Positions 31,566 to 35,540 of a stretch of 35,540 bases of DNA are shown here, piece after piece. Within the stretch, counting starts at the first letter, position 1. Every line of letters starts with the position of its first letter. The notes under the pieces were generated by a model. It had not been told where the DNA came from, ran no database searches, and worked only from the letters and a program-made list of their open reading frames with translations. A program made the translations under genes and the position numbers. Origin of the DNA: a virus; IMG/VR virus record IMGVR_UViG_3300028025_003024, positions 1 through 35,540 of that record, one strand, 5' to 3'.

Positions 31566-31745
31566 ATGACTACAAAGGAAGCCGTTGCCTTCTATGGCGG
31601 CGTGAAGAAGCTAGCAGACGAACTTGGCGTCTGGCCGCAGGTGATCTACGCTTGGGGAGAACGACCGCCCATGTCTCGCCAGTACGAGCTGGAGGTCAAG
31701 ACAAATCACCAACTGAAGGCAGACACGGAGAAAGAGCTTGGCTGA
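31566..31745 (+). CDS. Cro-like small helix-turn-helix regulator
   Basis: 59 aa from ATG 31566 (AAAGGTCAAG upstream). The sequence TTKEAVAFYGGVKKLADELGVWPQVIYAWGERPPMSRQYELEVKT has the Cro-type helix-turn-helix: LADELGVWPQVIYAWG is the recognition unit, and the P..RQ.ELE helix is typical of the family. No partner CI repressor is present in the window, so it may simply turn down the early promoter. An earlier ATG at 31527 would lie inside the promoter. Confidence 0.8.
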   Translation: MTTKEAVAFYGGVKKLADELGVWPQVIYAWGERPPMSRQYELEVKTNHQLKADTEKELG

Positions 31746-32580
31746 CCCGTTCAAAATCATAGACCGCACTTGCATCAGCTTCAGCGGAGGACGCACCAGC
31801 GCCTATATGCTGTGGCGCGTTCTGCAATCGAACAATGGCTTACCAGATGAGGCAATCGTTTGCTTCGCTAACACCGGCAAGGAAGAAGAAGCCACGCTCA
31901 AGTTTGTAGATAGGTGCAGCAAAGAATGGGGAGTGCCGATCACTTGGGTTGAGTACAGAGACGCTGAAGAAACGAAAGATAGGTTTCAGGTCGTTACATT
32001 TGAGACGGCCAGCCGTAACGGCGAGCCCTTTGAGGCAATCATCCGCAAGCGCAACTATTTGCCCAATCCGGTGAGCCGGTTTTGCACCGTAGAGATGAAG
32101 GTGCGGGCGATTCATCGCTACCTGAAATCAATCGGCTGGACAGAGTGGGAGTCAATGCTTGGCATTCGCGCCGATGAGCAGAGGCGTCTAGCCAAGATTG
32201 GCAATCAGGACTACGGCAAGCATGAGGAGAAGATTGCTCCATTGGGCCGTGTTGGAATCACCAAAGAGGACGTTGGCGCTTTCTGGAGGGCACAACCGTT
32301 TGACCTTGGGCTTCCCAACATGAATGGCGTCACCATGCATGGGAACTGTGATCTGTGTTATCTCAAGGGCGGCGCACAAATTCTTAGCCTCATACAAGAA
32401 AAACCCGAGCGCGCAGTTTGGTGGGCCAAGATGGAGGCGTTGGCGTTGGCGTCTGCGCCGTCTGGTGCCAAATTCCGCACCGACCGCCCTAGCTACGCCG
32501 AGATGGCAAAGTTCGCCGCAGAGCAGCGTGATATGTTTGACAAGAACGAAGAGGCGATTGCCTGCTTCTGTGGAGACTAA
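31738..32580 (+). CDS. PAPS reductase-like ATP pyrophosphatase family protein
   Basis: 280 aa from a TTG overlapping the regulator stop. It has the PP-loop SGGRTS at residues 16-21, NTGKEEEATLKFV, then YLPNPVSRFCTVEMKVRAIHRYL and LGIRADEQRR, the usual PAPS-reductase-superfamily order. Late cysteines CDLC (204, 207) and CFC (276, 278) form a possible Fe-S or zinc site. The family binds and pyrophosphorylates or reduces adenylyl-sulfur substrates. In phages the actual role is not known; DNA or tRNA sulfur modification and salvage are options. It precedes the primase. Confidence 0.8.
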   Translation: MADPFKIIDRTCISFSGGRTSAYMLWRVLQSNNGLPDEAIVCFANTGKEEEATLKFVDRCSKEWGVPITWVEYRDAEETKDRFQVVTFETASRNGEPFEAIIRKRNYLPNPVSRFCTVEMKVRAIHRYLKSIGWTEWESMLGIRADEQRRLAKIGNQDYGKHEEKIAPLGRVGITKEDVGAFWRAQPFDLGLPNMNGVTMHGNCDLCYLKGGAQILSLIQEKPERAVWWAKMEALALASAPSGAKFRTDRPSYAEMAKFAAEQRDMFDKNEEAIACFCGD

Positions 32581-32582
32581 CA

Positions 32583-34601
32583 ATGGCTGACCTATCCAAC
32601 ATCCTCGGAGGCCCGTGGTCGCCTCCTGCTGAGAAGCACATTGACCCGCCAGAGGTTCAGCTCATTGACTCCATCCGTGCTGCTGGCCTCGAGCCACCGC
32701 AAGAGGTGCATCTGGATGGAAAGATTCATAGATTTCGATCAGGCACCAAAGGCTCACCGGGTCATGGTGACAAGGCAGGCTGGTATCTGGTCTTTGGTGA
32801 TGGCGTACCTGCCGGTCGCTTTGGCTGTTGGCGCTCAGGCATTGAGGTGACATGGCGCGCCGATATTGGGCGCAAGCTCACGCCAACTGAGGAGATGGCT
32901 CACGCCAGGCGCATCTCGGAGGCCAAGGCGCTTCGCGACGCCGAACTCCAGCGTCAGAGGGAGGTCGCTTCTGTCACCGTGGAATCAATCTGGTCGTCAG
33001 CCCAAGGCGCAAGCCCCGAGCATCCCTATCTCCAGCGCAAGGGTATCCAAACCCACGGCGCACGGGTAACAGGCGATGGCAGGCTGGTTGTGCCTCTGTA
33101 CGATGCCGACGGGACAATCTCGAGCCTTCAGTACATCGATCACGATGGTGGCAAGCTCTACCACCCTGGCGGTCAGACCGGCGGAAAGTTCTGGCAGTTA
33201 GGCTCACTTGATGAGCCTGGAACGCTCTATATCGCCGAGGGCTTTGCCACCGCCGCCACGATCCACGAGACGACCAATCGCCCAGTGATTGTTGCCTACA
33301 GCGCAAGCAATCTTGTGCCGGTCACCGGCACGATGCGCGAGATGCATGGTCAGCACCAGGACTTAGTGATTGTGGCTGACAATGATAAATCGGGCGTCGG
33401 CCAGCGTTACGCCGAGCAGGCAGCGGCCAAATTTGGGGCGAGGATTGTCATGCCGCCACTCGAGGGAGACGCCAACGATTATGCCCAAGCTGGGCACGAT
33501 TTGGCGGGTCTTTTGACACCGACAAAAGATGGCTGGCTTGTGTCGGTTGATGAGTTTTCGGCCCAGCCTGCACCGATCAGTTGGCTGGTCAAGCGTTGGC
33601 TCCAGAGCCAGGCGCTCATCATGGTGCATGGCCCCTCAGGCGGCGGCAAGACATTCGTCGTCTTGGATTGGTGCCTACGCATGGCAGCAGGCATAGACAA
33701 CTGGTGCGGCCAGAAGGTCAAAGCCGGGAATGTGGTTTACCTAGCAGGCGAGGGCCACCACGGCCTGCGCGGACGCATCGCGGCCTGGAAGCACCACAAC
33801 AGCGCCGGTCGCCTATCTATGTGGCTGTCCAAAGACGGCTGCGATCTGAACACACCAGCAGGCTACCTGCAGGTTGTCGAGCAGATCAGGCTCATCAAAG
33901 AAAAGCCAGAGGTCATCGTCGTTGATACCCTGCATCGGTTCCTATCAGGCGATGAGAACTCAGCTCAGGACGCCAAGACAATGCTCGATGCCTGCGGTAA
34001 CTTAATGCAGGAGTTTAATTGCTCGGTTATTTTGGTTCACCATACTGGAGTATCTGAGGAGGCCCAACATCGCGCCAGAGGATCTAGTGCATGGCGAGGC
34101 GCATTAGATATTGAGATTAGTGTTGTGCCGGGCAAAAAGGATGTACCTATGCAATTGGTACAGAGAAAATCTAAGGATGCTGAAATGGCGGCTACTGTTT
34201 ATTTGGAACTGCAAACTATCACTATTCCGGGTTGGTATGACGAAGATAATCAGCCAGTAACTAGCGCCGTGGTTATTGAGTCTAAAGCGCCGCCAGAGCC
34301 AAAGAAAGACACCAAGATAGACGCGCATCGAAAGATGTTTGAGAACGCCTGGTGGGCCTGCGGAGCAGAGGAAAGAGACGGCCAGCCGTATCTGAGCCGG
34401 TCTGGACTGAAGGACAAACTGCTCCAGGACGGCAATGCGGAGCGCACCGTGAGGAACATGGTGAATCCCAGCTACCCGGACAAGCTGATCGGAGCGCTGC
34501 TGACCGCCATGATCATTGAGGCCACCGAGCATGGTTGGGTCGTCGTTGATGAGGTGCAGGCAAGCGCCATGATACTGAGGAAAAATACAGGTAAGAGTTG
34601 A
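32583..34601 (+). CDS. Primase-helicase (Toprim fused to RepA-like ATPase)
   Basis: 672 aa. Residues 1-200 include an N-terminal region resembling phage primases (AGWYLVFGDGVPAGRFGCWR) but no obvious CxxC zinc finger. The Toprim part carries LYIAEGFATAATIHE (Glu219) and DNDKSG (266-271). From about 335 a RecA/RepA-like helicase has Walker A HGPSGGGKT (349-357), Walker B IVVDTLHR and SxxxxHHTG. Similar fusions of P4-alpha/RepA type both prime and unwind. The window has no DNA polymerase. The last 25 bases overlap the start of the GGGTCA cluster. Confidence 0.88.
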   Translation: MADLSNILGGPWSPPAEKHIDPPEVQLIDSIRAAGLEPPQEVHLDGKIHRFRSGTKGSPGHGDKAGWYLVFGDGVPAGRFGCWRSGIEVTWRADIGRKLTPTEEMAHARRISEAKALRDAELQRQREVASVTVESIWSSAQGASPEHPYLQRKGIQTHGARVTGDGRLVVPLYDADGTISSLQYIDHDGGKLYHPGGQTGGKFWQLGSLDEPGTLYIAEGFATAATIHETTNRPVIVAYSASNLVPVTGTMREMHGQHQDLVIVADNDKSGVGQRYAEQAAAKFGARIVMPPLEGDANDYAQAGHDLAGLLTPTKDGWLVSVDEFSAQPAPISWLVKRWLQSQALIMVHGPSGGGKTFVVLDWCLRMAAGIDNWCGQKVKAGNVVYLAGEGHHGLRGRIAAWKHHNSAGRLSMWLSKDGCDLNTPAGYLQVVEQIRLIKEKPEVIVVDTLHRFLSGDENSAQDAKTMLDACGNLMQEFNCSVILVHHTGVSEEAQHRARGSSAWRGALDIEISVVPGKKDVPMQLVQRKSKDAEMAATVYLELQTITIPGWYDEDNQPVTSAVVIESKAPPEPKKDTKIDAHRKMFENAWWACGAEERDGQPYLSRSGLKDKLLQDGNAERTVRNMVNPSYPDKLIGALLTAMIIEATEHGWVVVDEVQASAMILRKNTGKS

Positions 34602-34711
34602 CCCTGAATGACCCTAGGGTCATGTTTAGGGTCAGGGTCAAAGTTGCACAAAAAAGCGGCAAAGTTGACCCTCCCTGACCCCCAACCCTTAGGGTTGGGG
34701 TCATAGGGTCA
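34599..34711. repeat. Cluster of GGGTCA half-sites (iteron/operator-like)
   Basis: Nine copies of (A/G)GGGTCA or its complement lie in 113 bp. As TGACCCY on the + strand: 34599-34605, 34609-34615, 34666-34672, 34676-34682. As RGGGTCA: 34616-34622, 34628-34634, 34634-34640, 34697-34703, 34705-34711. One pair forms a perfect 16-bp palindrome, ATGACCCTAGGGTCAT (34608-34623). CAAAGTTG flanks a central A tract twice, 21 bp apart (34639-34646, 34660-34667). Near 34680-34700 CCCCAACCCT pairs with AGGGTTGGGG around one base. The order is roughly symmetric. Reads as a binding array for a dimeric regulator or initiator. Confidence 0.75.
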
Positions 34712-34736
34712 TGCCGCGTATGGGGTTTTTCGGGGT

Positions 34737-34765
34737 TTGTTGAGTAAGTTAGTGGGTCTTAACAT
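34737..34765 (+). promoter_or_regulatory. Possible promoter before the 81-aa gene
   Basis: TTGTTG (34737-34742), 17-bp spacer, TAACAT (34760-34765). Each box is a partial match to sigma70 consensus. It is placed between the GGGTCA cluster and the next gene, 26 bp before its ATG. Weak but positionally sensible. Confidence 0.35.
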
Positions 34766-34790
34766 TGGTGATGATTTTGGAGGGGTTGAG

Positions 34791-35036
34791 ATGGCGCTTC
34801 GTGGAGTTGGTAGACCGGCTAAACCAGACGCCAAGGCTTTTCATCGGAAACTTGATGACGGCCAGAGAGCGATCCTCCTGGCTGCTGGCCGTGGTGACAT
34901 CTCAGCCGGATGGCTCGAGGTGCTTGACGCGTATCAACATCTCTACAACCTCGGATACAGGCCTGGGATGGATTTGAGCATGGCGTCGCTATCCCTCCCC
35001 ATTGAGTGCTACAAAAACGCTTCTAGAGGCTTTTAG
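34791..35036 (+). CDS. Small protein, unknown function, beside the origin-like region
   Basis: 81 aa from ATG 34791, behind GGAGGGG. The N-terminus ALRGVGRPAKPDAKAFHRKL is basic with a GRPAKP motif, reminiscent of AT-hook edges; the middle DDGQRAILLAAGRGDISAGWLEVLDAYQHLYNLGY is helical. A TTG at 34737 would add 18 residues but is inside the candidate promoter and lacks a ribosome site. Sandwiched between the GGGTCA array and DnaA boxes, so it could affect replication; no family recognised. Confidence 0.62.
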   Translation: MALRGVGRPAKPDAKAFHRKLDDGQRAILLAAGRGDISAGWLEVLDAYQHLYNLGYRPGMDLSMASLSLPIECYKNASRGF

Positions 35037-35051
35037 ACGCGTTCTAGAGGC
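35021..35051 (+). repeat. TTCTAGAGGC direct repeat, 21-bp period
   Basis: TTCTAGAGGC at 35021-35030 and again at 35042-35051, each preceded by ACGC (with an extra G in the second copy). Spacing of 21 bp is two helical turns. The first copy encodes the end of the upstream gene. Contains the TCTAGA palindrome. Might be a small protein-binding site. Confidence 0.5.
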
Positions 35052-35088
35052 ATTGTCTGGCTGGAGAGCTTGATCTTGTGACAGAAAG

Positions 35089-35124
35089 AATTGGGGACAG
35101 ATCAAATTAATTGGGGACAGATCA
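35089..35124 (+). repeat. Tandem AATTGGGGACAGATCA repeat
   Basis: AATTGGGGACAGATCA occurs at 35089-35104 and 35109-35124, a 20-bp period with an intervening AATT. I have seen TTGGGGACAGA sequences near REP-associated tyrosine transposase (RAYT) elements in Proteobacteria, from memory only. No transposase gene is in the window, so this would be a relic or an unrelated site. Confidence 0.55.
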
Positions 35125-35160
35125 GAATGAGATGGAGGTCAGGTATGTGGGGAAGGCACC

Positions 35161-35185
35161 ATCTCACCCTCTTTTGTGGTGAGAT
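35161..35185 (+). other. Perfect hairpin ATCTCACC/GGTGAGAT
   Basis: ATCTCACC (35161-35168) and GGTGAGAT (35178-35185) pair fully around a 9-nt loop. No T tract sufficient for a terminator follows. It could be a regulator site or a weak end for the transcript of the upstream gene. Confidence 0.5.
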
Positions 35186-35234
35186 TTGACGGTTTCATTG
35201 GCTCTGCGTGAATGTAAGCGCTCACTAACTTATG

Positions 35235-35489
35235 CAATCCACAGCTTATCCACAGAACCAGGCCCGAGTTGTCCACAATTGGCCTGTGAACAGCCAGCAA
35301 AGTAATACTTTGATGCCTGGAAAGTTAAATTCTATTTGACATAAAGAGCGTTGTATTTCATTTCATTTGTCAGCTTCGCGTAAGTGTTCAATTAAATCAA
35401 CAACTTACAAACCTTTTGCACAAGTTATCCACAGTCCGTAGAAAGTAGTACATCAATCTGTGGATAACCTGTGAATTTCCTGTGTATAA
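35235..35489. other. Origin-like region with DnaA boxes and AT-rich stretch
   Basis: Four perfect TTATNCACA DnaA boxes: TTATCCACA at 35246-35254 and 35425-35433 (+), TGTGGATAA at 35459-35467 (-), TGTGTATAA at 35481-35489 (-). One-mismatch boxes: TTGTCCACA at 35269-35277 and TTTTGCACA at 35414-35422; weaker matches near 35235 and 35285. Between the outer groups, 35315-35410 is conspicuously AT-rich, a plausible unwinding element. AAAGTA-A-TACTTT at 35299-35311 is a short palindrome. No gene in this 500-bp tail. Arrangement resembles a bacterial or plasmid origin. Confidence 0.75.
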
Positions 35490-35496
35490 CTCGATA

Positions 35497-35520
35497 GGGG
35501 GGGGGAGGGGTCTGGCAGGG
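35497..35520 (+). other. G-run with quadruplex potential
   Basis: Nine consecutive G (35497-35505), A, GGGG (35507-35510), a TCTGGCA spacer and GGG (35518-35520): enough G tracts for an intramolecular quadruplex. Lies just after the DnaA boxes and 20 bases before the window end. May also mark a difficult sequencing stretch. Confidence 0.5.
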
Positions 35521-35540
35521 CTTGTGATAACGATGGTGCC

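Follow-up and report, generated by a model that had tools for sequence, protein, structure and literature searches.

A cluster of DnaA boxes at positions 35235-35489 of a freshwater phage genome is, on balance, probably one half of a composite theta-replication origin, the half at which host factors would act; the origin as a whole would be driven in part by the host and in part by the phage. The phage half would consist of an iteron-like array (34594-34720) and the primase-helicase encoded directly before it. Judging from the comparison of related phages, host DnaA looks like a helper and not like the sole initiator.

Phage genome and DnaA-box cluster

The sequence analyzed (the window) is the complete IMG/VR virus record IMGVR_UViG_3300028025_003024 of 35,540 bp. 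The record probably represents a whole genome that is either circularly permuted or circularised, because the frame of the terminase small subunit gene (terS) runs from its likely ATG at 35533-35540 (plus strand) across the record ends to 1-409, the 6 bp GGTGCC are common to both ends, and relatives are continuous across this join. The record is listed without end repeats. The plus-strand genes include those for a terminase, an SU10-type portal, a major head protein, and an endolysin. A replication/recombination block on the minus strand encodes a VRR-NUC-like nuclease, a RadD-like helicase, a C5 methylase, a Cas4-type exonuclease, SSB, and a Sak4-like annealing protein. The second plus-strand group comprises a Cro-like regulator, a PAPS-reductase-fold protein, a Toprim_3+AAA_25 primase-helicase, and a small ORF. 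Among the scanned proteins, none was recognised as an integrase, a partition protein, or, as had already been noted, a DNA polymerase. No plasmid-maintenance or lysogeny genes were found among the ORFs scanned (small unknown ORFs remain), the sole regulator being the Cro-like HTH protein. The plasmid-like stage suggested in the original prediction therefore finds no counterpart in the recognised gene content.

No known phage gave a Megablast match to the first 25 kb of the record, and hundreds of metagenomic relatives were found. The genome-contig relatives are mostly metagenome bins, whose assignment is doubtful. The PAPS-reductase-fold gene (31738-32580), located directly 5' of the primase-helicase gene, is also present in relative L031 (1014-1856), without that primase. 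In relative L002 (50-1894), the terminase is 97% identical, yet the 614-aa replication protein is quite different and DnaA boxes are absent; judging from this case, replication modules are freely exchanged within this virion type.

We next counted the DnaA boxes. The exact box TTATNCACA occurs four times in the whole window, and all four copies are located within 35246-35489, against a mean of 0.50 in dinucleotide shuffles of the window; none of 100 shuffles reached four. The claim that four exact boxes lie on both strands within 245 bp, far above chance, was thus confirmed, as was, for exact boxes, the statement that the window holds no other such cluster. When one mismatch was allowed, 16 matches were obtained compared with 16.45 by chance, six of them inside the 245 bp. 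A search of the record with TTRTNCACA added the site at 35269 and one stray match elsewhere.

The exact boxes, identified by the count and by alignment, are box 2 (TTATCCACA, 35246-35254, plus strand; mean column conservation 0.99 among 12 aligned phages), box 4 (TTATCCACA, 35425-35433, plus strand, 179 bp from box 2), box 5 (TTATCCACA, 35459-35467, minus strand), and box 7 (TTATACACA, 35481-35489, minus strand). The two near-exact boxes that had been reported were also found on the plus strand: box 3, TTGTCCACA, at 35269-35277 (TTGTCCACA in 11 of 12 aligned sequences and TTATCCACA in the other), and TTTTGCACA at 35414-35422, 11 bp before box 4, where several relatives have TTGTGCACA or TTGTCCACA. 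Two further positions are decayed in the window. At 35235-35243 (position 1, plus strand), 11 bp before box 2, the window has CAATCCACA and 7 of the 12 sequences have TTATCCACA; at 35470-35478 (box 6, minus strand), the plus-strand sequence is TGTGAATTT, most relatives have TGTGGATAA, and the 11-bp phase is maintained.

The boxes encircle the AT-richest stretch of the genome. Near the cluster, A+T peaks in the 60 bp that start at 35303 (72%, the 99.99th percentile of the record), in agreement with the AT-rich stretch described originally; the AT-rich centre (35303-35420) is a candidate DNA-unwinding element. An IHF site, AATCAACAACTTA (consensus WATCAANNNNTTR), is located at 35395-35407 on the plus strand. 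In addition, a conserved element TTTGACATAA..TTGTATTT (35335-35360, plus strand) forms an imperfect dyad in the alignment and is a candidate operator or promoter, and a conserved G-run, GGGGGGGGGAGGGG, lies at 35497-35510 between the cluster and terS. Two exact copies of AATTGGGGACAGATCA (35089-35104 and 35109-35124, 20 bp apart) are found between the small ORF and the cluster. The GC skew switches near 22 and 31.5 kb, and its minimum lies away from the cluster, where an origin of the kind first proposed might have been expected to leave a switch. Since the skew tracks gene orientation, it is uninformative for the origin, and the absence of a switch at the cluster is not decisive for a 35-kb phage.

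An alignment of 12 phages (the window and 11 related freshwater phages) was used to evaluate the conservation of the cluster. The cluster aligned position by position, with eight box positions (35235, 35246, 35269, 35414, 35425, 35459, 35470, and 35481) and 11-bp phasing within groups. Column conservation was 0.946 in the boxes and 0.823 in the other columns of the region (p = 1.4e-7), and the perfect IHF consensus was kept in 12/12 phages, with changes at N positions only. Because the phased boxes are more conserved than the spacer and the IHF consensus is kept throughout, the cluster is, as far as the alignment can tell, functional and under selection. In near-complete relatives, almost every exact box of the genome is located in this same region. 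The presence of boxes was then compared with that of the primase in terminase relatives with enough upstream sequence. Where a related locus had a primase hit and its terS region was visible, at least three boxes were present (33 of 33 loci), bearing out the expectation that related phages share them, compared with at least two boxes before terS in 4 of 32 relatives without such a hit (Fisher p = 2e-14, with loci counted as independent despite their relatedness).

L018, L030, and L043 also have four or five boxes clustered before terS together with an IHF-like site; the helicase match is distant (about 30%) in the first two, and the L043 contig ends before that gene. In L018 (1-2050), a RepA-type helicase lacks the full primase match; the stretch behind it gives a repetitive peptide in the reverse frames and is probably a further array of the kind described below. 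Upstream of terS in phages with different helicases, a conserved ACATAATG/ACGTAATG element is preceded at 15 nt by a DnaA box (L036, 4500-4540; L043, 790-840; L094, 6954-6990; L126, 7738-7775; L145, 7771-7800), a pairing that is possibly a DnaA-linked promoter or operator.

Primase-helicase and iteron-like array

The statement that the genome has no recognisable initiator gene was not supported, because the primase-helicase adjacent to the cluster (32583-34601, plus strand, 672 aa) is a candidate initiator. Its Pfam domains are Toprim_3 and AAA_25 instead of those of the two-winged-helix Rep initiator family. The protein is similar to RSF1010 RepA, which was the sole match in a PDB sequence search (1g8y/1nlf/1olo, E 5e-11, helicase core). 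AlphaFold modelled the full-length protein poorly (pLDDT 59.6), and residues 572-672 (34296-34598, plus strand) gave an AlphaFold2 model of a C-terminal winged-helix domain with a pLDDT of 90.9. In a fold search with this domain, no PDB match reached E 0.001, and the top matches included several winged-helix proteins.

Directly behind this gene lies an iteron-like array (34594-34720), the candidate primary origin. In ~125 bp it contains nine TGACCC/GGGTCA words, of 26 in the window, arranged in two dyads that flank an A-rich spacer, with GCGGC/GCCGC closing the second dyad. The single-stranded DNA of the array folds with z = -7.2. Among the relatives examined, nearly all those with a full-length homologue at or above about 50% identity have a comparable array behind the gene, and none was seen in the 43%-identical L165. 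The words in freshwater phages are TGACCC, GTAAC, GGAAC, GCCCCC, and GCCCCT; those in isolated Salicola, Idiomarinaceae, and Alteromonas phages are GGGGACA, GGTACA, and GGTTCA, and genome contigs show further words in the same layout. No Rfam match to 32000-35540 was obtained at E up to 0.5 when a known RNA element was sought. A promoter or terminator was rejected as the explanation of array and cluster because no consensus match was obtained. Salicola phage CGphi29 carries a TIGR locus (PMC12045711); the repeats were not regarded as a TIGR-Tas array, because the array sits behind the primase gene and its words track the primase.

Next, we compared the array words with the sequence of the primase-helicase. 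The identity of residues 601-640 was 0.85-0.98 within a word type and 0.33-0.64 across types, except between the GTAAC and GGAAC types (0.83), whose words are one base apart; most of the remaining protein stays about 0.7-0.95 identical across word types. On a tree of residues 1-560, from which the winged helix was left out, the array word switches at least 13 times. Among close pairs, the domain differed by 4% when the word was the same and by 48% when the words were different. Between L130 and L144, a 4.7-kb stretch of 99.7% identity gives way to ~0.4 kb in which the two differ, after which identity returns to 99.5%; the differing cassette contains the part of the gene that encodes the winged helix, the array, and the pair of DnaA boxes. 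The GTAAC and GGAAC types are split perfectly by residue 625 (Q/V) and residues 631/632, which are in or just after a predicted helix (620-627). These results suggest that the winged helix of the primase-helicase probably reads the array. Linkage contributes to the co-inheritance of the two, since they are neighbours. Because the winged-helix sequence switches together with the array, it is more plausible that the phage supplies an initiator that has binding sites of its own. The proposal that host DnaA starts replication was retained in part: the oriC-like cluster under selection stands, and DnaA is improbable as the sole initiator.

Other candidate readers were less satisfactory. The small ORF between the array and the cluster (34797-35036, plus strand) lies within a 99-aa ORF starting at 34737, for which no homologue was detected in the GTAAC/GGAAC relatives that have the array, and it was rejected as the reader on this ground. 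The Cro-like HTH protein is unlikely as a reader, since L130 and L144 differ in their words though they are nearly identical through most of the primase gene.

We also examined the position of DnaA boxes relative to the array. In sister clades, a pair of DnaA boxes 11-12 bp apart and a third box about 180 bp further on bracket the array. This arrangement was found in GTAAC, GGAAC, and some TGACCC phages, and GCCCCC types usually have the third box only. In contigs G003, G017, G019, G020, and G024, the three bracket boxes are the only exact boxes of the record. The IHF-type cluster was found in 0 of 22 loci with bracket boxes compared with 13 of 13 loci without them, the window being among the latter, and the mean number of relaxed boxes was 3.4 and 7.4, respectively. 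Because the two distributions are complementary, in a clade-structured manner, they suggest that the cluster of the window may replace the bracket boxes and do their job. The array also occurs without exact boxes. In the closest primase relatives (L082-L085, 86% identity), the array is present and no exact DnaA box was found in the 39.4-kb contig G015, which is possibly incomplete. Isolated gammaproteobacterial relatives from marine and saline settings (Salicola CGphi29, Idiomarinaceae 1N2-2, and Alteromonas XX1924 and PB15) have the array without a box cluster, which indicates that replication of this type can do without DnaA.

Alternative roles of the cluster

The main rival to the composite origin is control of transcription by the boxes, with host DnaA acting at a late promoter of terS and the structural genes and the array alone being the origin. 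DnaA is a known transcription factor (PMC8203912), and the cluster is directly upstream of terS and contains a ACATAATG-type conserved element, before which several relatives have the DnaA box at 15 nt. Moreover, L036, L039, L051, and L060, morphologically related phages that have another helicase and no such primase, keep two boxes before terS. We nevertheless consider this role unlikely, because no sigma-70 promoter match was obtained in 34500-35540, the boxes of sister clades bracket the array, being in some the only exact boxes of the record, and eight phased boxes with an IHF site around the AT-richest stretch exceed what a promoter needs. The less likely alternative of an oriC-like origin opened by DnaA only would have DnaA melt the AT-rich centre and load host DnaB, with the array serving otherwise, for example, in single-strand initiation or copy-number control. 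The anatomy of the cluster, with boxes on both strands, 11-bp phasing, an IHF site, and an AT-rich centre, is what such an origin would show. This reading seems improbable, since nearly all members, including box-free ones, have their own primase-helicase and a co-evolving array, and TerL relatives with other replication genes are mostly without the cluster.

The number and closeness of the boxes would also suit a titration decoy, in which many phage copies soak up host DnaA and stop initiation on the host chromosome. A decoy would need neither the conserved strict phasing nor the IHF site and the spacing to the AT-rich centre, and box sets swap along with the reader domain of the origin, so that titration appears quite improbable. 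Finally, the decay of two box positions in the window (35235 and 35470) is what a chance assembly or functionless relic might display; we regard this as very improbable because the cluster is conserved column by column across 12 phages, the boxes more strongly than their surroundings.

Proposed composite origin and known systems

In the composite origin that we favor, the phage primase-helicase would bind the two dyads of the array via its C-terminal winged helix, and host DnaA would fill the phased boxes. IHF would bend the DNA at 35395, the AT-rich centre would be stressed and opened, and the 0.6 kb separating the array from the cluster would be looped. The RepA-type helicase with its Toprim primase would then be loaded and prime synthesis, and host polymerase III would be the extender, because no phage DNA polymerase was recognised. 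A broader proposal, for and against which we see about equal grounds, is that a RepA-type primase-helicase with an exchangeable winged-helix reader, its specificity written in an adjacent dyad array of about a dozen words, constitutes a widespread phage origin system, which freshwater lineages have tied to host DnaA and IHF on more than one occasion, using different layouts.

A large group of uncultured freshwater phages thereby gains a testable replication origin, and, to judge from the cluster, a tailed phage that has its own helicase-primase may still be able to recruit the host initiator DnaA. The same protein with a swapped winged helix and a swapped word also provides an unusually clear natural series of protein-DNA specificity, from which a recognition code might be derived, so that origins could be predicted from sequence and phages that compete for origins or exchange them could be recognised.

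The layout resembles that of PICI/SaPI pri-rep-ori and phage P4 alpha/ori, where a primase and an initiator are sometimes fused and the origin, directly 3' of the gene, has two iteron sets around an AT-rich spacer (PMC6092414). The likeness is limited to layout. Unlike PICI and P4, the phage has an AAA_25/RSF1010 RepA-like helicase with a Toprim primase and involves DnaA boxes, and unlike PICI satellites it is a complete phage with its own terminase, portal, head protein, and endolysin. The helicase core is shared with RSF1010 RepA (1g8y), which is a stand-alone protein, whereas the phage version shares one polypeptide with a Toprim primase and a C-terminal winged helix. RSF1010 has separate RepB'/RepC.

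With bacterial oriC, the cluster shares phased 9-mer DnaA boxes on both strands, an IHF site, and an AT-rich centre, but it is not set in a dnaA/dnaN neighbourhood. Of 150 genomes of one bacterial order, only one had the exact 11-bp tandem of two boxes, beside sugar-transferase genes. This sole match is not an origin, and direct copying of the tandem from a bacterial oriC thus found no support in these 150 genomes.

In function, the predicted origin is likened to the iteron plasmid origins (P1 oriR, pSC101, F, RK2, and R6K), which combine initiator-bound repeats, DnaA boxes, an IHF site, and an AT-rich element; in the phage, initiator binding to the repeats is a prediction. In these plasmids, Rep, DnaA, and IHF/HU jointly open the origins; pSC101 and R6K use Rep, DnaA, and IHF, and P1 uses Rep and DnaA (PMC5043065, PMC4980987). 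P1 likewise has a separate DnaA-box array beside an IHF site (PMC4980987). Unlike iteron plasmids, the phage has as its candidate initiator a RepA-type primase-helicase and not a two-winged-helix Rep, its repeats are dyads with variable words, and its DnaA/IHF cluster is 0.6 kb off. By this analogy, the phage origin would work like the iteron-plasmid type without being a member of it. What appears new from the sequence comparison is a variant of a known origin type in which the DNA-reading domain is linked to its repeats in a natural series.
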